This document shows positions 16,889 through 44,905 of a stretch of 45,526 nt of DNA, one piece after another; within the stretch, counting starts at the first letter, position 1, and every line of letters begins with the position of its first letter. Source of the stretch: a virus. The translations under genes were made by a program, and so were the position numbers. The notes under the pieces were generated by a model, which saw only the letters and a program-made list of their open reading frames with translations, ran no database searches and was not told where the DNA came from. The DNA is taken from the IMG/VR virus record IMGVR_UViG_3300030389_000645, positions 1 through 45,526 of that record; one strand, written 5' to 3'.

Positions 16889-16927
16889 TAATTTACTCCT
16901 TTCAAAAGTGTTAAAGTTATAGTTATA

Positions 16928-18970
16928 TCATGCTACGTCTTTAGTGTCAAGCCAATTCGGACCAATTTTTGCTTCTAATAATAATGGTACATTAAAATTA
17001 ACATTCCATCGGTTGTCGATAATACTTTTTAATTTGTTGTTTGTACTATCTATAATAGTAAGCACTGCTTGCTCCTCATTAGGATGAACATCTATCACAA
17101 TAGAATCGTGTACAGTATTCACGATACAACTTCTTAGGTCATTAAGTTCCTTATCTATGTGCAGTAACGCAATAGGTACTATGTCTGCTGTCGCAAAGGA
17201 CTGCACAGGATAATTCTTTATCTGTGTAAAATGCGAGACAGTGTTATTACGTCTACGTGTAACATCAGGAAAGGAAAACTCTCTGCCTGAAGGTGTTGAT
17301 ATCTTGCCAGTGTTAAGTGCTTCACTAGCAAGACGCTTATGCCACTTGGCTATACCTGCATACTTATCATTGAACTGAGAATAATAAGCCGCTTCTGCAG
17401 GTGTTCGTCCATACCCACTAGCACCATACAGAGGTGCAAACGTGTGAGCTTTAGCATCTTGTCTTGATGTAGGTTGCCCTGCGTCAGATATAACCTTCGC
17501 TGTGTAGGCATGTACATCAAATCCTGTAGCTACCTCATCCATAGCTACTTTGTCCTGTCCTAGATAGGCGGCTACACGAAACTCTAACTGTGCAAAGTCA
17601 GCTTCCATAATCTTGCCACCCTCCCATCGTGATACAAACACCTTCTTCACAGGAAATGTACCACCTCTAGGCATGTTCTGCATGTTAGGATCTGCTCCAC
17701 TCAGTCTACCTGTAGAAGTTCTGTGCTGTAGAAGTCTAACGTGCAAGCGATTGTCAGGTTTGGTGTGTGTGCGGATTCCCTCCACAAATGAGGACAGGTA
17801 TGTGTCGATTGCTGATAACCGTTGCACCCTACTAAGAAAAGCAACAGCACCATCCATATTCCTAGCACGAGCAATCCCTTCAAGATACAATAGGTTTGTC
17901 TTATTCGTGCTAAAACCATTAGCACTGATCCACTTAGCGTTGGGTGCATTAAACTTTAACCCTGCTATAGCATTGTTGATAGGTGTAAAGGTGTATCCAA
18001 TACCTGCACACACATTACATTTATTTGATTTAGAAAATAGTGTTCCATCTTTTTTTACCTTTCTTACTGACCCTGTTCCTCTACAGGTGCTACATTGATG
18101 CGCTTTCTGTTTAAAAAGCACTTGTGACTGTTCTTTTATACCCTTTTTATATGCATCGTTATTCATATAAGGATCAAAGGTATTTACCCATATCGTTTTA
18201 TCTTTAGGTTTACGGCTATAAATAATCCATGACAGTTGTTCAGGACTGTTAAGATTAATAGGAATATCCCCCATTAGATCTCGCACCTGTTTATTCAAGT
18301 CAGATACTAGTTGCTGTTTCTCCTGTTCAAATTCACTTTTAACATGCTCAAGTTTAGACAAATCTACCTTAAACCCACGCTGATATATACGTGATAGACA
18401 CACTGCTACCTGATTAGTTAGATCAACTGTGTCTCGTAAACCATTATCCTCTAACAATAGTCTTTTATATATCTTATCTGATAATTCTTGCGTAGCATGT
18501 AGATCAGCAGATAAATATTCAGATAGCTCACCCCAAGGTATGTCTGATACAGAGTGACCCTTACTAAAATATTCTTTCATAGTATCTTGCTTCTTTGTGT
18601 CTAGGTCATACCTCTCCGCACATGCTTCAAGAGACAGAGGCTCTTTCAACCCACGCTGTAGTACATACTCACCTAGCATAGTGTCAAACACAGGACCGTC
18701 ATAGGTAAACCCACTCTCCCATAGCCACAACAAGTCATGTGATGCGTTGTGCATAATGAGTATGGTAGCTCTGTCTAGCCAATCCTGTACTATCATATGA
18801 CCGTCAGTATCAGAGTCAACCTCGTTATGATTAAACGTAATGAGTGCCTCTTCACCTGAGTCTGATAACATCCCCACCATAACAAGCTCATTCGTAGGTT
18901 CAAATGGATCTAGGTGTAGCTTACCATCACGTTTAGTAACTGTATTCTCTACATCAAGTGTTAGTTTCAT
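16928..18970 (-). CDS. Family A DNA polymerase with 3'-5' exonuclease and DnaJ-like zinc insert
   Basis: The exonuclease residues are D6-x-E8, D79 (HDLLW) and Y152-x3-D156. The polymerase motifs are A, with D458 (DFAQLEFR); B, with K507, F511 and Y515-G; and C, with H621-D622-S. F511 aligns with E. coli Phe762. Between the domains lies a DnaJ-type element, C293-x2-C296-x-G-x-G and C318-x2-C321-x-G-x-G, with a basic linker. This insertion is the known hallmark of HMO-2011-type phage polymerases. It may bind zinc and position the template or a partner, but its role is not established. The start overlaps the GIY-YIG gene by 17 bases. Confidence 0.95.
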   Translation of the reverse strand: MKLTLDVENTVTKRDGKLHLDPFEPTNELVMVGMLSDSGEEALITFNHNEVDSDTDGHMIVQDWLDRATILIMHNASHDLLWLWESGFTYDGPVFDTMLGEYVLQRGLKEPLSLEACAERYDLDTKKQDTMKEYFSKGHSVSDIPWGELSEYLSADLHATQELSDKIYKRLLLEDNGLRDTVDLTNQVAVCLSRIYQRGFKVDLSKLEHVKSEFEQEKQQLVSDLNKQVRDLMGDIPINLNSPEQLSWIIYSRKPKDKTIWVNTFDPYMNNDAYKKGIKEQSQVLFKQKAHQCSTCRGTGSVRKVKKDGTLFSKSNKCNVCAGIGYTFTPINNAIAGLKFNAPNAKWISANGFSTNKTNLLYLEGIARARNMDGAVAFLSRVQRLSAIDTYLSSFVEGIRTHTKPDNRLHVRLLQHRTSTGRLSGADPNMQNMPRGGTFPVKKVFVSRWEGGKIMEADFAQLEFRVAAYLGQDKVAMDEVATGFDVHAYTAKVISDAGQPTSRQDAKAHTFAPLYGASGYGRTPAEAAYYSQFNDKYAGIAKWHKRLASEALNTGKISTPSGREFSFPDVTRRRNNTVSHFTQIKNYPVQSFATADIVPIALLHIDKELNDLRSCIVNTVHDSIVIDVHPNEEQAVLTIIDSTNNKLKSIIDNRWNVNFNVPLLLEAKIGPNWLDTKDVA

Positions 18971-29526: not shown

Positions 29527-29574
29527 ATAGTTATATAACACTTTCACATATAGTTCAAGTGTTATAATAACTAT
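29527..29574. repeat. AT-rich long inverted repeat
   Basis: The arms 29527-29543 and 29557-29574 pair over 17 positions with one bulged base around a 13-base loop. Neither strand has a U-run after it, so it is not a standard terminator. It occupies the gap between the membrane microprotein and the Gp88-like gene and contains promoter-like boxes. A regulatory or RNA-processing role is possible. Confidence 0.55.
29530..29558 (-). promoter_or_regulatory. Sigma-70-like promoter for the Gp88-like gene
   Basis: On the minus strand TTGAAC (29558-29553) is followed after 17 bases by TATAAC (29535-29530). Predicted initiation near 29523 leaves operator copy 3 about 20 bases downstream. The promoter overlaps the inverted repeat at 29527-29574. 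Confidence 0.5.
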
Positions 29575-31235: not shown

Positions 31236-31264
31236 TTGACATGTTTTATTAAAACTGTTATAAT
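31236..31264 (+). promoter_or_regulatory. Consensus sigma-70 promoter of the rightward late block
   Basis: TTGACA (31236-31241), a 17-base spacer and TATAAT (31259-31264) form a perfect consensus promoter pointing right. Transcription should begin near 31271, giving an AT-rich leader of about 135 bases before the first gene. It indicates use of the host RNA polymerase. Confidence 0.85.
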
Positions 31265-31407
31265 TATGTATAACTAAAACATGCACATCACTTAAAGTGT
31301 ATACAGTTAAACTATTCCCTATAATATATCTTATATTACACTTATATGAATCATTTAAAATGGTTCTATAAGAATATTATACGTACAAATTAAATTAAGG
31401 CTTGACT

Positions 31408-31620
31408 TTGGCACGAAAATCAGTAAAACTATACACAGACAATGTTATTGAAGAGTTTTATAAAGCTCTTGTAAATAACAATCTCGACAAATTACATATT
31501 CCCCATAGTGATGTATTCTACGTAAGAACTGCTGTAGAGGCACACTATGGACGTTCTTTTACTCTTAAAGAAGTAGAGGACGCTATGAGAGCCGAGGGGT
31601 GGAAAGACTCTAATGAGTAA
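31408..31620 (+). CDS. Hypothetical protein, TTG start (70 aa)
   Basis: No ATG is available. The TTG at 31408 stands seven bases after AAGG and gives MARKSVKLYTDNVIEEFYKA. An alternative TTG at 31402 is closer to the site. The protein is small, helical and charged, with a V-R-T-A-V-E-A-H-Y-G-R-S-F-T segment. It is the first gene of the rightward transcript. The function is unknown. Confidence 0.6.
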   Translation: MARKSVKLYTDNVIEEFYKALVNNNLDKLHIPHSDVFYVRTAVEAHYGRSFTLKEVEDAMRAEGWKDSNE

Positions 31621-31640
31621 AAGAAATAAGGAGAATACTA

Positions 31641-32123
31641 ATGAGTACTAAGGATAAAAAAACTAAAGGTAAAAAGGATCTTACAAAAAAACAATTTTTA
31701 GCTTTGTCAGATAGTCAATTAAGTAAGCTAGGCAATGCTGAAATAATGAGATATATATTAAAATTTGGAATAATGTCTTTTGATGAAATTATGGGCAGGG
31801 CTAAAGGTGGTTTATCTAAAATGCAAACAGGTGGAATGAAAACTCCTCCTAGCGGAGCAAAAGGAAAAGGATTACGTAGCTTGCCTAAATCTGTGCGTAA
31901 TAATATGGGTTATATGAAAGATGGAGGATCTACTATGAAAGGTAAAAAAACTAAAGGCTACGCTAAAGGTGGAATGAAAACTAAAGGTTATGCTAAAGGT
32001 GGCATGAAGAAACCTGCTAAAATGATGGGTGGAGGCATGAACATGAAAGGCAAGAAGACCAAAGGTTATGCTAAAGGTGGAATGAAAAAAACTAAAAGCT
32101 ATTCCAGAGGTGGAAAAAGATAG
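31641..32123 (+). CDS. Basic Gly/Lys-repeat protein, probable virion or DNA-associated protein (160 aa)
   Basis: A short globular part (residues about 16-53) is followed by a very basic Gly/Lys/Met tail. The ten-residue unit TKGYAKGGMK is present three times in frame (residues 104-113, 114-123 and 140-149), two in tandem. Such lysine-glycine tails suggest nucleic acid binding, and a similar tail (KGGLAKMKAKK) ends the virion protein at 41166-43838. The ribosome binding site is AAGGAGAA. Confidence 0.65.
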   Translation: MSTKDKKTKGKKDLTKKQFLALSDSQLSKLGNAEIMRYILKFGIMSFDEIMGRAKGGLSKMQTGGMKTPPSGAKGKGLRSLPKSVRNNMGYMKDGGSTMKGKKTKGYAKGGMKTKGYAKGGMKKPAKMMGGGMNMKGKKTKGYAKGGMKKTKSYSRGGKR

Positions 32124-32133
32124 CATATCGGAC

Positions 32134-32162
32134 TTGCAATATTGTCTGTAGTGTGATATACT
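32134..32162 (+). promoter_or_regulatory. Sigma-70-like promoter of the DUF1127 gene
   Basis: TTGCAA (32134-32139), 17 bases and TATACT (32157-32162) point right in the gap after the basic repeat protein. Initiation would fall near 32169, the first base of the leader hairpin. Confidence 0.65.
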
Positions 32163-32169
32163 AATATAT

Positions 32170-32219
32170 GTTATAACTACCTTGTGCTAAAAATGCACAT
32201 ACGTAAAAGGAGTTATAAC
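32170..32219 (+). promoter_or_regulatory. 5' leader hairpin that covers the DUF1127 ribosome binding site
   Basis: GTTATAACT (32170-32178) pairs with AGTTATAAC (32211-32219), and after one bulged A, CCTT (32180-32183) pairs with AAGG (32207-32210). The pairing buries the whole AAGGAG site up to the base before the ATG. An inner stem TGTGC/GCACA (32183-32187 with 32195-32199) can also form. It could be a thermometer, a protein-controlled switch or a processing structure. Confidence 0.6.
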
Positions 32220-32384
32220 ATGAAACAGTATTTATACAAACTATGGGAACGCTATCAAGTATACCAAGAAAGAAGAGCAGCATACGAGGTGCTGCATGCT
32301 TTAACAGACTATCAGCTTAAAGATATTGGTATAGGTAGCAGAAGCGATATTAGGAGGATGGTATGCGAGTATCAGAAAAAGTAA
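32220..32384 (+). CDS. DUF1127 (YjiS-like) small protein (54 aa)
   Basis: After W9 and a basic stretch (YQERRAAYEVLHALTDYQ), the C-terminus carries the family core L-x-D-Y-Q-L-K-D-I-G-I-x-R-S-D-I-R-R. DUF1127 proteins are short and Arg-rich, and abundant in alphaproteobacteria, where members affect RNA turnover and phosphate or carbon metabolism. A phage copy suggests host acquisition and manipulation of host RNA metabolism. I start it at 32220, after AAAAGGAG, not at 32184. It has its own promoter and a structured leader. Confidence 0.8.
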   Translation: MKQYLYKLWERYQVYQERRAAYEVLHALTDYQLKDIGIGSRSDIRRMVCEYQKK

Positions 32385-33113
32385 ATGTCGTACTTAATAA
32401 GTAACGTACCACATTTTAAATGTTGGGTAAGAAGAGAGTTTACCTGTAATCATCAAGACTATCATGGCGAGTTTTTACACGCTATGGTATTTGCAGTAAA
32501 CACAATACCTGACAGGTCGTTAAGTTTTCAGCTAGTATTCACTGGTTGTGAAGTTGACAGAGAAGATGGACCTGAAGAAAATGTACACGGTGGAGCAATG
32601 TGGGCTAGGATGCCCATACAGGCTCTAGTAGCAGATATACCAGTAGATGACTGGGCAGTACCAATGGAAGACCACTTATGTCAACCTTGGGATTGTGAAT
32701 CAAGACATCACAGCGTAGTAGTGCTAGACAGAGTTAGTTCATCACCTTGGCTATGTAAAATAGACAATGAGTTTTATAAAGGTAAATATTTATTTACTGT
32801 TGACTACACAGACAGTGATATAGCTGATGATCCTGCACAACATAAACAGTCACATGTTTTATATTTGACAGATGCAGGACAGTGGACAGGAAACTTGGTA
32901 GCATTACCTAATAACAGAGTTAGAGCTACAAGCCCTGCTCTTTGGAGAACTGGTGAAGGTGCGCCTGACTTTACACCGTCACAGTGGACACACTCAGCAG
33001 AGAGTCACGAAAGTTACCTAGACCCATCTATAACCTTTAATAACTTATATGAGGATAGACATGACAGCAAAAGCAAAAGCAACGGTAAAAAAAGTAGCAG
33101 GAAAACTACGTAA
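32385..33113 (+). CDS. Conserved marine phage protein (242 aa)
   Basis: MSYLISNVPHFKCWVRREF opens a family that I recognise from podoviruses of SAR11 and related hosts. A central G-A-M-W-x-R-M-P-I-x-A-L segment, many Trp and His residues, a late W-T-G-N-L-V motif and a basic Ser/Lys tail follow. There is no membrane span. It starts directly after the DUF1127 stop, and its tail overlaps the next gene. The function is unknown. Confidence 0.65.
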   Translation: MSYLISNVPHFKCWVRREFTCNHQDYHGEFLHAMVFAVNTIPDRSLSFQLVFTGCEVDREDGPEENVHGGAMWARMPIQALVADIPVDDWAVPMEDHLCQPWDCESRHHSVVVLDRVSSSPWLCKIDNEFYKGKYLFTVDYTDSDIADDPAQHKQSHVLYLTDAGQWTGNLVALPNNRVRATSPALWRTGEGAPDFTPSQWTHSAESHESYLDPSITFNNLYEDRHDSKSKSNGKKSSRKTT

Positions 33114-33342
33114 AGCTAGTAAGGCTCATGCAGGTCAGGCAAAGGCTTTGTCTGCATTAAAGCTTAATAAGGGTGGTAGCACTGTAAATAAAGCAGGTAA
33201 CTATACTAAACCCACTATGCGTAAAAATTTATTTAATCGTATTAAGGCAGGCACAAAGGGTGGTAAAGCAGGTCAGTGGTCTGCAAGAAAAGCACAGATG
33301 CTTGCTAAACAATATAAAGCAAAAGGTGGAGGCTACAGATGA
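33061..33342 (+). CDS. Small basic protein (93 aa)
   Basis: From ATG 33061 the product is Lys/Ala-rich with a K-A-G-N-Y-T-K-P-x-M-R-K-x-L-F-x-R-I-K-A-G core and an A-R-K-A-Q-M-L-A-K-Q-Y-K end, a pattern conserved in many marine phages. The charge suggests nucleic acid or capsid-interior binding. It overlaps the preceding gene by 53 bases and the next microprotein by four. Confidence 0.65.
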   Translation: MTAKAKATVKKVAGKLRKASKAHAGQAKALSALKLNKGGSTVNKAGNYTKPTMRKNLFNRIKAGTKGGKAGQWSARKAQMLAKQYKAKGGGYR

Positions 33343-33416
33343 AAAGATATCTTAAAAGATTATGGTGTGCTTTAATTAACAGGAAATGCTCAGAAAACTG
33401 CACTTGCGATGAGTAA
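33339..33416 (+). CDS. Cys-containing microprotein (25 aa)
   Basis: The frame MKRYLKRLWCALINRK, then C-S-E-N-C-T-C-D-E is coupled at both ends (ATGA with the previous gene, and an eight-base overlap with the next). The C-x3-C-x-C end could bind metal. Similar short Trp/Cys proteins occur in related phages. Confidence 0.45.
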   Translation: MKRYLKRLWCALINRKCSENCTCDE

Positions 33417-33714
33417 AGATCCTAAAGTAGGCACAGGTAAAAAACCTAGAGGTAGTGGCAGAAGACTTTATACAGATGAGAATCCAAAAGATACCGTCAG
33501 TATAAAGTTTGCTACCGTTCAAGATGCTAAAGATACAATAGCTAAAGTTATGCGTATCAAAAAACCATTTGCTAGAAAGATACAGATATTAACTGTATTA
33601 GAGCAAAGAGCTAAAGTTGCAGGTAAAATGGAACAGGCAAGATTAGCAAAGGAAGCAAAAGAACGATTGAGGAGACAGAGAAATGGCACTAGCAAAAAGT
33701 CAAAGAAGTCTTAA
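33409..33714 (+). CDS. Conserved small basic protein (101 aa)
   Basis: The segment K-P-x-G-S-G-R-R-L-Y-T-D-E-N-P-K-D-T-V, followed by K-P-F-A-R-K-I-Q-I-L-T-V-L-E-Q-R-A-K, is a conserved block in marine phages and some large DNA viruses. The end is Lys/Arg-rich. The function is unknown. Likely virion-associated or nucleic-acid-binding by charge and neighbours. Confidence 0.65.
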   Translation: MSKDPKVGTGKKPRGSGRRLYTDENPKDTVSIKFATVQDAKDTIAKVMRIKKPFARKIQILTVLEQRAKVAGKMEQARLAKEAKERLRRQRNGTSKKSKKS

Positions 33715-33931
33715 ATCGTGGACTAAACAAAAGTGGAGAACCAAAAGTGGTAAGCCATCTTCTAAAACAGGAGAACGATACTTGCCTACAGCAGCAATCA
33801 AGGCACTATCTCCACAAGAATATGCAGCTACAACAAGAGCTAAAAGGAAAGGTACAAAGAAGGGTAAGCAGTTTGTTAAGCAACCTAAAGGAATTGCTAA
33901 GAAAACTCGTGCTTATCGTAAGGTTACTTAG
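33683..33931 (+). CDS. DUF5872-like basic protein (82 aa)
   Basis: The pattern S-L-K-S-W-T-K-Q-K-W-R-T-K-S-G-K-P-S, then G-E-R-Y-L-P and A-A-T-T-R-A-K-R-K-G-T-K-K-G-K-Q-F matches my memory of DUF5872, a domain of phages and giant viruses with no known activity. It is very rich in Lys. It overlaps the preceding gene by 32 bases. Confidence 0.6.
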   Translation: MALAKSQRSLKSWTKQKWRTKSGKPSSKTGERYLPTAAIKALSPQEYAATTRAKRKGTKKGKQFVKQPKGIAKKTRAYRKVT

Positions 33932-33940
33932 ACCTAGACG

Positions 33941-34138
33941 GTGGCAAATATATGCCCTATTTGTGGGCATGATACGGTTGTAATAAAAAACCGATTATCA
34001 TGTCTATACTGCGAAAACTTTTATGACGTAGAATTAGCAAAAACATGGGTAAATCATATTTATGACACAAAAGAAATTTCAGAAGCACAGCGAGTACGAA
34101 GATTACGACCTAGATGGAGATGGAGTAGTGACGGATGA
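33941..34138 (+). CDS. Zinc-ribbon protein, GTG start (65 aa)
   Basis: The GTG at 33941 gives MANICPICGHD, with C-x2-C and a second C-x2-C (CLYC) 13 residues later, a compact zinc ribbon. The last 25 codons overlap the EF-hand gene in another frame and are Arg/Trp-rich. The ribosome binding site is weak. The zinc motif is the main support. Confidence 0.5.
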   Translation: MANICPICGHDTVVIKNRLSCLYCENFYDVELAKTWVNHIYDTKEISEAQRVRRLRPRWRWSSDG

Positions 34139-34382
34139 AGAACTTGCACATGCAAAAGAAATAAATAAATCTGAAGCTGAGTTACGCAAACAAAGAGCGC
34201 AACGTAGAATGGCTACAGCTACGCTAATAGGCATGGGAGCATTTACAGCAGGAATGTTTTTTATGCCTATTGAGCATATAGAAGCACTATCAGATTTATC
34301 TAATCTGTTTTATATATCAGGTGCAGGTATAGTTGGTGCATATATGGGAACATCCGCATGGATGTCAAATAGAAGTAAATGA
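34062..34382 (+). CDS. EF-hand membrane protein (106 aa)
   Basis: An N-terminal EF-hand calcium loop, D-L-D-G-D-G-V-V-T-D-E-E-L (residues about 16-28), is followed by a charged helix and two hydrophobic helices (residues about 50-66 and 82-100). This EF-hand plus two-span layout is widespread in marine phages. A calcium-responsive membrane or lysis-accessory role is possible. It overlaps the next gene by four bases. Confidence 0.7.
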   Translation: MTQKKFQKHSEYEDYDLDGDGVVTDEELAHAKEINKSEAELRKQRAQRRMATATLIGMGAFTAGMFFMPIEHIEALSDLSNLFYISGAGIVGAYMGTSAWMSNRSK

Positions 34383-34675
34383 CGCTAAAACCTGCGCAAC
34401 TAAAACCTACAAGTAGAACAACTAAAACAGGTAGACGTATTTATAAGTTAGGAAACAGGGATGTTTCAGAAATATCTACAACTTTAAAGTATAAAGGTAA
34501 ATGGATAAATATTCCAACTATACATAATGGTAAAATAGTTAGATCTGAAAAAAAATTAAAACAAATGCTTGATAATAATGAAATTAAACCAACTAGCACC
34601 CATAAGAGTTTAGCATTAGCAGAAGCAGCAGCAGCTAAACGTAGTAAATTACTAACAAGAGGTACAGGATTTTAA
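34379..34675 (+). CDS. Conserved hypothetical protein (98 aa)
   Basis: The recognisable block is K-G-K-W-I-N-I-P-T-I-H-N-G-K-I, then I-K-P-T-S-T-H-K-S-L-A-L-A-E-A-A-A-A-K-R-S. It is found as a separate protein or a domain of larger virion proteins in marine phages. The function is unknown. It is coupled to both neighbours by overlaps. Confidence 0.6.
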   Translation: MTLKPAQLKPTSRTTKTGRRIYKLGNRDVSEISTTLKYKGKWINIPTIHNGKIVRSEKKLKQMLDNNEIKPTSTHKSLALAEAAAAKRSKLLTRGTGF

Positions 34676-34821
34676 TGCCACACTACACTAAGCCATTAAC
34701 TAAAGTTATAAAAGGATTAAAGAAAGCATCTAAGCTACATTTAAAGCAAGCTAAGACTCTTACTAAGATAAAAAAAGATCAGAAGACAAGATATAAAAAG
34801 AAAGGTACACATGGCAGATAA
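34675..34821 (+). CDS. Basic microprotein (48 aa)
   Basis: The ATG at 34675 overlaps the preceding stop (TAATG), and the frame ends at 34821, inside the next gene. MPHYTKPLTKVIKGLKKASK continues as an almost pure Lys/Thr-rich helix. The content resembles other small basic proteins of this cluster. Confidence 0.6.
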   Translation: MPHYTKPLTKVIKGLKKASKLHLKQAKTLTKIKKDQKTRYKKKGTHGR

Positions 34822-35023
34822 CGTAATTAATATAAATCAAAAAGATTATAAACTAGAAGATTTAGATAGTAAATCTAAATATATAGTAGCGCAGATACGA
34901 GACTTAGAAGGTAAAGTAGCTGCAGCTAAATTTCAATTAGATCAACATGAGATAGCTAAACAGCAGTTTGTTAATATGCTAATAGGTGCTGTAGAGGGTA
35001 AGCCAAACGGAAAAGATAACTAA
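34811..35023 (+). CDS. Small coiled-coil protein, DUF6447-like (70 aa)
   Basis: A short polar start is followed by a long heptad helix (LEDLDSKSKYIVAQIRDLEG to IAKQQF). This matches my memory of DUF6447, small phage coiled coils usually encoded just before the holin. Its stop overlaps the holin start. Confidence 0.6.
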   Translation: MADNVININQKDYKLEDLDSKSKYIVAQIRDLEGKVAAAKFQLDQHEIAKQQFVNMLIGAVEGKPNGKDN

Positions 35024-35391
35024 TGTTTAACTTAGCAGGAACATTATTATCATCAGCAGGAAATTTAGCATCTACATGGTTAGATGGTAAAGTAGCCGCT
35101 AACAAAGCTGAAGCGGAGATTCGTCTGAAAGAAGCTACAGGCGATATAGATTGGGACTTAGCTGCTATTAGGGCATCTCAGAGTTCGTGGAAAGATGAAT
35201 GGATTACTGTACTTTTCTCCATTCCGTTAGTACTGTCCTTCTGTGGTGATTGGGGTAGGGAGATAGTAGCAAATGGTTTTACTGCTCTAGCAGGTATGCC
35301 TGACTGGTATCAGTATAGTTTAGGTGCTGTTGTAGCAGCATCACTAGGAACAAAAGGGGTAGCTAAGTTTTTTGGTCCTAAAAAGAAATGA
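35023..35391 (+). CDS. Holin, three-helix gene-transfer-agent type (122 aa)
   Basis: The pattern A-E-I-R-L-K-E-A-T-G-D-I-D-W-D, then S-W-K-D-E-W-I-T-V-L-F-S-I-P-L-V, P-x-W-Y-Q-Y and a final hydrophobic stretch fits the GTA_holin_3TM family known from Rhodobacterales gene transfer agents and alphaproteobacterial phages. Hydrophobic helices lie near residues 63-78 and 98-113, with an amphipathic N-terminal helix. It would open the inner membrane to release the endolysin encoded 300 bases downstream. Confidence 0.75.
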   Translation: MFNLAGTLLSSAGNLASTWLDGKVAANKAEAEIRLKEATGDIDWDLAAIRASQSSWKDEWITVLFSIPLVLSFCGDWGREIVANGFTALAGMPDWYQYSLGAVVAASLGTKGVAKFFGPKKK

Positions 35392-35627
35392 AAATATTCT
35401 TATATGTAATGTTCCTAGTGAATGATGTCTGGTGGATTGATCCTAACTTCCCACCAGTAATCATGCAAGACGCAGAACAGTGTAGAACTATGGAAAACTA
35501 TTTTGGTATTAATATGGGAATAATACAAGAGCATGAATACAAGATCGGATGTATCCAAGCAAATGACATATGGGGATTTCTTGTTGATACATATGGGTCA
35601 AGACCCTATAAAGATACTCAAATTTAA
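35388..35627 (+). CDS. Hypothetical protein in lysis cluster (79 aa)
   Basis: A hydrophobic start (MKIFLYVMFLV) is followed by a soluble, Cys-containing domain (C32 and C55), consistent with a short signal or anchor and one disulfide. It lies between holin and endolysin, overlapping the holin by four bases, so a spanin or lysis-accessory role is conceivable but unproven. Confidence 0.55.
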   Translation: MKIFLYVMFLVNDVWWIDPNFPPVIMQDAEQCRTMENYFGINMGIIQEHEYKIGCIQANDIWGFLVDTYGSRPYKDTQI

Positions 35628-35727
35628 ACCCCAATATTTAGGTGAAAGAAGAATACCGTTAGCACGATTTAATAATAAAAGGAAGTACACACATGGCTTA
35701 CACACTGTCTACAAGGTCACTAGATAA
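35593..35727 (+). CDS. Doubtful small basic frame (44 aa)
   Basis: A frame in a different phase from both neighbours spans the otherwise empty 65-base gap before the endolysin and overlaps it. The product is basic (MGQDPIKILKFKPQYLGE...). There is no clear ribosome binding site. It may be chance. Confidence 0.22.
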   Translation: MGQDPIKILKFKPQYLGERRIPLARFNNKRKYTHGLHTVYKVTR

Positions 35728-36145
35728 ACTTGAAGGAGTCAATGAAGACTTAGTGCAAGTTGTTAAAAGAGCAATAGAACTCACAAAAATTGATTTTGGA
35801 GTCATCTATGGCATGAGAACCAAAGAAGAACAACAGAAGTTATTTGACTCTGGTAAATCTCAAACTATGAAGTCTAAGCATTTAACAGGTGATGCAGTGG
35901 ACTTGATGGCATACGTAGACGGTAAAGCATCATGGGAACTCAATCTGTATGACGATTTAGCTGACGCTATGAAGTGGGCAGCCACAGAATATGGCACTAA
36001 GATTAGATGGGGTGCAGCTTGGCATATACCTGATATAGCTATATGGGATGGCACTATGGAAGAAGCTATGATGGCTTACATAGACTTGCGTAGGTCAGAA
36101 GGCAGAAGACCATTTATTGATGGTCCACATTTTGAACTTAACTAG
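35693..36145 (+). CDS. Endolysin, peptidase M15 family (150 aa)
   Basis: The zinc-ligand motifs of M15 D-Ala-D-Ala or L-Ala-D-Glu peptidases are present: S61-x-H63-x-x-G-x-A-x-D70 (SKHLTGDAVDL) and the terminal D143-G-P-H146-F. The length matches single-domain phage enzymes. It cuts peptidoglycan cross-links at lysis after the holin opens the membrane. There is no signal peptide, consistent with holin dependence. Confidence 0.88.
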   Translation: MAYTLSTRSLDKLEGVNEDLVQVVKRAIELTKIDFGVIYGMRTKEEQQKLFDSGKSQTMKSKHLTGDAVDLMAYVDGKASWELNLYDDLADAMKWAATEYGTKIRWGAAWHIPDIAIWDGTMEEAMMAYIDLRRSEGRRPFIDGPHFELN

Positions 36146-36146
36146 T

Positions 36147-36398
36147 ATGAGAAAAATATCTTTACCACCCCCTAGACCTAAAAGGTTCACTACAAAAGGC
36201 AGAAAAGAAGCAGAAACTGATGCTGCTGTAAGTAGGTTAGTAAAAGAGTACTCTAAAACAGGTACAAAAGCTGAAACACCTACGTATGATAAATTACCTG
36301 CTAATAGTCCTTATTTACGAAGCTTACAAAAATTAGGTAAGATATTTAAAGGTACAACTAAAGATAAATTGCAGGTTAATTACAGGATAGACTTTTAA
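36147..36398 (+). CDS. Hypothetical basic protein (83 aa)
   Basis: From ATG 36147, one base after the endolysin stop, the product begins MRKISLPPPRPKRFTTKGRK, with a Pro/Arg-rich start and a Lys-rich body. An upstream in-frame ATG at 36117 would lie inside the endolysin. The function is unknown. Confidence 0.6.
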   Translation: MRKISLPPPRPKRFTTKGRKEAETDAAVSRLVKEYSKTGTKAETPTYDKLPANSPYLRSLQKLGKIFKGTTKDKLQVNYRIDF

Positions 36399-36676
36399 TG
36401 GCTACAGGTATGAAAGGTCACACTATAAAAGGCGGTCACAAGCGTCCTACTAAAGCAGGCGCAGGTATGACAGCAAAAGGTGTAGCTAAGTATCGTAGAG
36501 ATAACCCTGGAAGTAAGTTACAAACTGCAGTCACCGAAAAGAAACCTACAGGTAAACGTGCAGCAAGAAGAAAGTCATACTGTGCTAGAAGTGCAGGACA
36601 AATGAAAAAGTTTCCTAAAGCAGCAAAAAATCCTAACAGTAGATTACGACAAGCAAGACGAAGATGGAGATGTTAA
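36398..36676 (+). CDS. DUF6321-like basic protein (92 aa)
   Basis: The C-terminal two thirds read G-M-T-x-K-G-V-A-K-Y-R-x-x-N-P-G-S-K-L-x-T-A-V-T, R-R-K-S-Y-C-A-R-S-x-G-Q-M-K-K and N-P-N-S-R-L-R-Q-A-R-R-R-W-R-C, a well conserved block I associate with DUF6321 of phages and giant viruses. It is strongly basic with two conserved Cys. The role is unknown. It lies just before the terminase genes. Confidence 0.6.
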   Translation: MATGMKGHTIKGGHKRPTKAGAGMTAKGVAKYRRDNPGSKLQTAVTEKKPTGKRAARRKSYCARSAGQMKKFPKAAKNPNSRLRQARRRWRC

Positions 36677-37048
36677 TTGGCAAGAGAACTAACAGATAAA
36701 CAACAAAAGTTTTTACAGGTATTGTTTGATGAAGCAAGTGGTGATGTAGCTATGGCTAAAAGATTAGCAGGCTACGCTGAAGGCACAAGCACTACTGATA
36801 TTGTAACAGGATTAAAGGAGGAGATACTTGAAGCAACACAAATCTATATGGCAAGAAATGCTCCTCAAGCTGCCGTTGCATTGGCAGGTGGTATGCTTGA
36901 CCCAACTCAACTGGGCATACGAGATAAGCTCTCTGCTGCGAAAGAACTTCTTGACCGCACTGGTTTGGTTAAGACTGAAAAGATGCAAGTAGAATCCACA
37001 GGTGGAGTAATGTTAATGCCACCTAAGAAACAAGAAGAAGATGAATAG
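36677..37048 (+). CDS. Probable terminase small subunit, TTG start (123 aa)
   Basis: The TTG at 36677 directly follows the previous stop. MARELTDKQQKFLQVLFDEA resembles the N-terminal helix-turn-helix of small terminase subunits (L-T-x-K-Q-x-x-F-x). The C-terminal half carries P-Q-A-A-V-A-L, A-A-K-E-L-L-D-R-T-G-L, also seen in that family, and an acidic end. It would recognise phage DNA and load the large terminase encoded shortly downstream. Confidence 0.7.
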   Translation: MARELTDKQQKFLQVLFDEASGDVAMAKRLAGYAEGTSTTDIVTGLKEEILEATQIYMARNAPQAAVALAGGMLDPTQLGIRDKLSAAKELLDRTGLVKTEKMQVESTGGVMLMPPKKQEEDE

Positions 37049-44771: not shown

Positions 44772-44799
44772 TTGACAAATAGATTATTATAAGTATAAC
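44772..44799 (+). promoter_or_regulatory. Promoter upstream of the capsid gene
   Basis: TTGACA (44772-44777), 16 bases and TATAAC (44794-44799) face right. A second -10-like TATAAT at 44807-44812 lies further on, so initiation may shift. It starts four bases after the scaffold stop and would give extra capsid transcript. Confidence 0.65.
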
Positions 44800-44905
44800 T
44801 ATATGTTATAATGTTTATTTACCCTATTTTATAGCAACTTAATAAACATACCATAGCAAGCTCCAGAAAGTTTAAATTACTCTGTGATAAAAAGCCCAGA
44901 GATTT

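Follow-up and report, generated by a model that had tools for sequence, protein, structure and literature searches.

A DUF1127 gene with a structured leader

The window, meaning the whole 45,526-nucleotide stretch analysed here, is a 45.5-kb virus record from an HMO-2011-type marine phage, whose terminase and portal region shares 73–75% DNA identity with Puniceispirillum phage HMO-2011 and the roseophages CRP-1 and CRP-345. The locus under study holds a short ORF preceded by two promoter-like elements and a leader hairpin (Table 1). The ORF matches PF06568 with 33.7 bits (cut-off 23.3) over profile positions 1–37 of 37, in agreement with the DUF1127 core originally recognized in its translation. 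Relatives of the locus were grouped as A (the window, L002–L005 and L011), B (L006–L009), C (L104, L105 and L135–L143) and D (L150–L158). The dN/dS of the ORF is 0.05–0.16 against group A relatives and 0–0.21 over all related pairs tried and, because it is this low in every pair, the substitution pattern indicates that the ORF is a real protein under purifying selection.

Table 1. Positions of the leader elements and the DUF1127 gene in the window, and hairpin arms of other carriers
Feature	Position	Strand	Sequence	Basis or remark
Outer promoter-like element	32134–32139 and 32157–32162	+	TTGCAA, 17-bp spacer, TATACT	Sequence, consensus scan
Inner extended -10	32169–32178	+	TGTTATAACT (TGTTATAAC at 32169–32177)	Within proximal arm; predicted start about 32184
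Proximal (hiding, anti-SD) arm	32167–32182	+	TATGTTATAACT A CCT	RNA folding, hand alignment
Apical stem-loop	32183–32199 (stem 32183–32187/32195–32199)	+	TGTGC...GCACA	Compensatory changes in relatives
Distal arm	32208–32222	+	SD core AGGAG (32208–32212) and ATG	RNA folding
DUF1127 ORF, 54 aa	32220–32384	+		PF06568 match; stop directly abuts the next gene's ATG
CRP-212 arms			ATAATTACCT/AGGTAATTAT	
CRP-3 arms			ATAATTATCTC/GAGATAATTAT	One mismatch allowed at the end
CRP-235 arms			ACTCTCCTTAG/CTAAGGAGAGT	
CRP-207 and group D arms			CTATCTCC/GGAGATAG	

In size and PF06568 core, the phage protein resembles the small bacterial DUF1127 proteins, such as the SDPs of A. tumefaciens, YjiS of E. coli and Salmonella, and CcaF1 of R. 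sphaeroides, from which the phage copies are nevertheless divergent: bacterial matches to the window's family reach just 34–52% identity over partial length. The SDPs bind to the sensor kinase PhoR and hold back phosphate uptake, with similar evidence from E. coli, and CcaF1 binds RNA (PMC12501420). Some HMO-2011-type phages carry phosphate-related genes (PMC9038755). By analogy, a role for the phage protein during infection in the control of host phosphate (the PhoR/Pho system) or of host RNA is plausible.

The promoter–hairpin–ORF unit lies at different places in different phages, which fits a unit bringing its own expression control. DUF1127 precedes its downstream neighbour in only 3 of the 80 loci that have that neighbour; in most of these 80, the stop of a Lys/Gly-rich gene overlaps or nearly abuts the neighbour's start. 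The gene had been described as moron-like, and its occurrence in a minority of relatives and its variable position agree with this. Promoter-like elements are conserved ahead of it, and no + strand terminator-like site was found after the ORF, which ends directly at the next gene's ATG. Upstream of the cassette, the gene at 31641–32123 encodes a repetitive Lys/Gly-rich protein with K-TKGYAKGG repeats; it differs greatly between relatives in copy number and position. The small-gene array at 31400–37000, upstream of the terminase, is strongly shuffled, with the same genes differing in order and presence from one relative to another.

The leader hairpin pairs the Shine–Dalgarno sequence

The leader at 32167–32222 folds with a dG of -20.2 kcal/mol (z -6.03), and none of 200 shuffles was as stable. 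With an unpaired probability of about 0 for GGAG, the folding bears out a leader hairpin that hides the ribosome-binding site. The full AAGGAG (32207–32212) had been placed in the distal arm; the Shine–Dalgarno (SD) core and the ATG are indeed inside it, whereas the first A (32207) sits at its edge. In a search of the window for inverted repeats at distances of up to 60 nt, the hairpin came first in the list, and no Rfam 15 family matched within 31–34 kb at E up to 1. Comparable fold energies are not rare, occurring in about 3% of the genome's 72-nt stretches, and an SD as closed as that of DUF1127 is found for 5.4% of 367 SD-bearing ORFs in the HMO-2011-type phages examined. Going by the folding model, what is unusual about the hairpin is not its energy but that the SD itself is the paired part.

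The window SD is still closed when upstream sequence of up to 320 nt is included in the folding. Refolding of the read-through RNA to an open form, which was seen for L011, was not seen by folding in the window. Temperature, one of the gates originally suggested, is disfavoured in silico: predicted openness of the window SD is 0.00 at 5–37 °C and 0.04 at 65 °C, and an RNA thermometer was rejected on these grounds.

Conservation and covariation of the leader

Aligned by hand, groups A and B and L104 show pairing-preserving changes on both sides in the apical stem (G-C/A-U and C-G/U-A) and in the CCU/AGG stem, and in L004 and L011, whose start codon has changed from AUG to GUG, the pair is kept as G-U. 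A covariance-model alignment places standard pairs in 94.9% of pair cells, against 25.7–54% with the partner slid. It contains 8 double-change cells against 2.4 in shuffles, and its covariation score is 0.221 against 0.160 (0 of 500 shuffles); kinship among the sequences can inflate all such figures. Folding and covariation in relatives had been proposed as the check on the hairpin, and these figures come out in its favour. A MAFFT alignment gave no structure with RNAalifold, since aligning by sequence puts the distal arm out of register; the covariance model and hand alignment were used in its place. Relative to L105, conservation is highest in the promoter segment (0.71–0.79), followed by the ORF DNA (0.57–0.61) and the leader (0.31–0.47).

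Among the loci searched, the leader covariance model matches solely DUF1127 genes; L105 folds similarly yet is not listed by it. A further 89 loci yielded no significant match to the hairpin model (best E 0.85), and 385 alphaproteobacterial genomes, a set without a positive control, yielded none under strict filters. A distant DNA search of phage records returned just short chance matches, and L095, picked up by an exact 18-mer, was rejected as not being a DUF1127 locus.

Two promoter-like elements at fixed spacing

The outer element, TTGCAA-17-TATACT, is present as originally reported, with a TG one base ahead of TATACT and a predicted start at about 32168–32170. A consensus scan of 29.5–36 kb gave 19 promoter-like sites against 23.6 expected, and the outer promoter alone is not above chance; the real evidence for this putative element is conservation at fixed spacing in relatives. 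TTGCA and the spacing are kept in groups A and B, L105, D1, CRP-1, CRP-13 and CRP-345; in L104, C1 and C2 the outer -10 has decayed.

The second element is an extended -10 inside the proximal arm. TATAACT occurs at this arm in all 23 group A–D leaders checked (IMG/VR-type, window included), and its context is TGNTATAACT in groups A, B and D, L104 and L105. Wherever TTGCA is present, including in L002, L003 and L005, it lies 37–38 nt from TATAACT, even where the outer -10 has decayed. L151 and L153 of group D are without TTGCAA and the outer -10 and retain TGTTATAACT and the hairpin. In several relatives, the proximal-arm TATAACT is unchanged and its distal partner mutated, as expected if the proximal strand also has a role as DNA. 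No -35 is recognizable for the inner element, and by sigma-70 rules the outer promoter looks stronger in groups A, B and D1 and in several CRP phages, where it would give a locked RNA. From its conservation we infer that the inner -10 is used as a promoter. Predicted elements conserved at fixed spacing in relatives thus support the earlier view that DUF1127 has its own promoter. Initiation at the first base of the hairpin, also part of the original prediction, is plausible for the outer promoter, but the better-conserved inner -10 predicts a start further downstream.

Elsewhere in the window, closely paired TATAAY motifs with variable spacing lie at other likely promoters, at 16921–16933 (-), 29527–29541 (-), 31259–31275 (+) and 44794–44808 (+).

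Unrelated sequences hide the SD or start in most cultured roseophages

Searches with the group D and CRP-738 proteins revealed that ten cultured HMO-2011-type roseophages carry DUF1127. Only in CRP-603 is the gene annotated as such; in the others it is unannotated or hypothetical, and in CRP-13 it occupies a place (L162:1001–1165) without an annotated CDS. Now that the gene is known from ten isolated roseophages, phage DUF1127 becomes testable in culture.

In group D and in most of the cultured phages, the SD or start is hidden by arms unrelated to those of the window (Table 1). The cultured phages have a -10 (TATAAT or TATAAC) that lies within the hiding strand or immediately 3' of it. As the SD and start are buried by unrelated sequences in distant relatives, structure rather than sequence appears to be under selection. 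Compared with shuffled upstream sequence, the cost of opening the SD-to-start region is individually significant (p ≤ 0.05) in 11 of 19 leaders, and Fisher's combination over the 19, which are not phylogenetically independent, gives 4e-10. Poor fits are L011, a clear exception with a read-through opening cost at p = 0.955, and L135, which is weak; in CRP-603, the inner start gives no gain in opening cost. The hairpin–promoter arrangement is lacking from the DUF1127 copies of CRP-5, L145 and the jumbo phage Phosso. In the latter, a Sinorhizobium phage, the DUF1127-like gene (L168:998–1147) has a tRNA-Lys a few hundred bases downstream.

Group D leaders (L152:700–755 and others) contain a loop GCAC able to pair with a GTGC just past the stem, so that a pseudoknot covering the SD and start could arise. 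CRP-212 (L160, CCACCTAATTAGGTG) and CRP-3 (L163, CGCACTTAACTAGGTGCG) have an inverted repeat just upstream of the -10, about 35–60 nt 5' of the DUF1127 start, possibly an operator.

A candidate promoter-embedded lock and its alternatives

On balance, we think that the leader probably acts as a promoter-embedded translational lock, in which the strand hiding the SD and start coincides with the -10 region of the inner promoter. RNA arriving from further upstream, by operon read-through or from the outer promoter, would contain the hiding strand and fold, leaving DUF1127 untranslated, whereas RNA from the inner promoter would begin downstream of that strand and expose the SD. Expression of DUF1127 would then depend on the inner promoter alone, whichever operon holds the cassette. 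The hairpin, its conservation and covariation and the conserved position of the -10 are computed directly; the start position and the translational effect are what we infer from them.

RNA begun about 7 nt past the -10 would retain little or none of the hiding strand, and in folding the SD is closed on RNA from the outer start. In the window, predicted SD openness is 0.00 on read-through RNA and 0.58 on RNA from the inner start; the corresponding values are 0.00 and 0.89 in L152, 0.00 and 0.92 in CRP-212, and 0.07 and 0.97 in CRP-1, with the caveat that a shorter RNA has fewer pairing partners by necessity. For this reason the control over all ORFs matters: among the SD-bearing ORFs of CRP-3 (54), CRP-212 (62) and the window (64), none but DUF1127 is both closed on read-through RNA and opened by a start from its own -10. 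Read-through into DUF1127 is likely, to judge from the TTGACA-17-TATAAT at 31236–31264 and the absence of any + strand terminator-like site between it and the gene. This upstream promoter, a 12/12 sigma-70 match with an extended -10 at the head of the + strand operon, overlaps an inverted repeat (31240–31255/31268–31283) and has a TATAACT 4 nt past its -10.

The closest competing account, which we regard as unlikely though worth keeping in view, has the transcript start at the outer promoter (about 32168), so that even mRNA from the gene's own promoter is locked and is translated only after a trigger such as RNase III cleavage, a small RNA or a protein. It draws on the TTGCAA-17-TATACT/TATAAT with TG at fixed spacing in groups A, B and others, and on the closed state of RNA from the outer start. 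However, L104, C1 and C2 have only a decayed outer -10, L151 and L153 lack it along with TTGCA although the gene persists there, and several cultured phages have a -10 only at or downstream of the hiding strand. Gating by an RNase or small RNA, as originally proposed, is not needed to explain the leader, and simpler mechanisms exist. Transcription beginning 3' of the proximal arm, then counted against the hairpin, is what the lock predicts; it would change the hairpin's role and not its reality. Autogenous control, with the small basic DUF1127 protein binding its own leader to set its own translation, seems improbable to us: the leader model's restriction to DUF1127 genes, RNA binding by the related bacterial CcaF1 (PMC12501420) and the binding of T4 gp43 and gp32 to their own leaders (PMC3014915) speak for it, but arms and loops differ wholly between groups and cultured phages, with no shared protein-binding motif seen, and the arms close without any protein.

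Slightly less probable again is a 5'-terminal hairpin that stabilizes the mRNA and hides the SD as a side effect. On RNA from the outer start the hairpin would be 5'-terminal, and on the inner transcript the apical stem would be; yet the SD and start are paired in group after group by different sequences, and in CRP-235 and CRP-738 the -10 follows the hiding strand, which is therefore missing from the gene's own transcript. We give least credence to a DNA-level inverted repeat serving as the operator of a dimeric repressor instead of an RNA structure, which we consider very improbable. GTTATAAC is itself palindromic, and its exact copies in the window are the two arms only, but covariation in the apical stem, G-U-tolerant changes at the start codon, the asymmetric internal loop and the other arm sequences elsewhere fit RNA pairing. 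As a repeated operator, GTTATAAC was rejected for want of enrichment (30 one-mismatch sites against 28 expected).

If the inner promoter does release a translational lock, the outer promoter of groups A, B and D1, CRP-1, CRP-13 and CRP-345 may be either a further promoter, one that keeps DUF1127 off, or a component of an activator site. Leaders with two -10s about 14–15 bp apart, of the form TTGCAW-17-TATAMY-N8/9-TATAACT, are found in groups A, B and D1, L105, CRP-1, CRP-13 and CRP-345. Here the choice of start site might itself be a switch, the outer, -35-dependent start giving locked RNA and the inner, extended -10 start open RNA; we hold this to be doubtful. Were it true, anything weakening -35 recognition during infection, such as a hypothetical AsiA-like phage factor, would suffice to switch DUF1127 on, and no dedicated regulator would be needed.

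Relation to known systems

Control of this kind is known already. In T4 genes e and soc, the SD is hidden on early read-through mRNA; the 5' strand of the e helix is encoded by the promoter region, so that the own transcripts of e are open (PMC3014915). The window is alike in that, by folding prediction, its SD and start lie in a helix on long transcripts; its gene and phage group are unrelated, and T4 e and soc use phage late promoters (TATAAATA), whereas the window has a host-type (sigma-70) extended -10, read from its sequence. Driven by a host-type promoter, DUF1127 might be expressed early and stay silent on the operon mRNA made later, opposite in timing to T4 lysozyme. I-TevI, I-TevII, I-TevIII, segB and Aeh1 mobE are likewise inserted genes with a hairpin hiding the ribosome-binding site and a promoter whose transcripts cannot form it (PMC2988022). 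The phage DUF1127 leaders share such a hairpin and have a conserved -10 at the place where a promoter of that kind would be expected; however, DUF1127 is not an endonuclease and its arm sequences change completely between relatives. What would be new here are the phage group, the DUF1127 gene and the host-type promoter, and the literature searched yielded no report of such control on a DUF1127 gene.

If the lock exists, control in the style of T4 lysozyme and I-TevI would reach an abundant group of marine phages and a small protein of regulatory type. It has apparently been rebuilt several times with unrelated sequences, and this suggests strong selection for keeping DUF1127 off on operon mRNA. 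Control through the mRNA leader is also known for a bacterial DUF1127 gene, duf1127_1 of Sinorhizobium meliloti, whose leader mediates uORF-dependent Rho attenuation (PMC12218461). There, control works through uORF translation and transcription termination, whereas the short leader of the window is predicted to pair directly with the SD.
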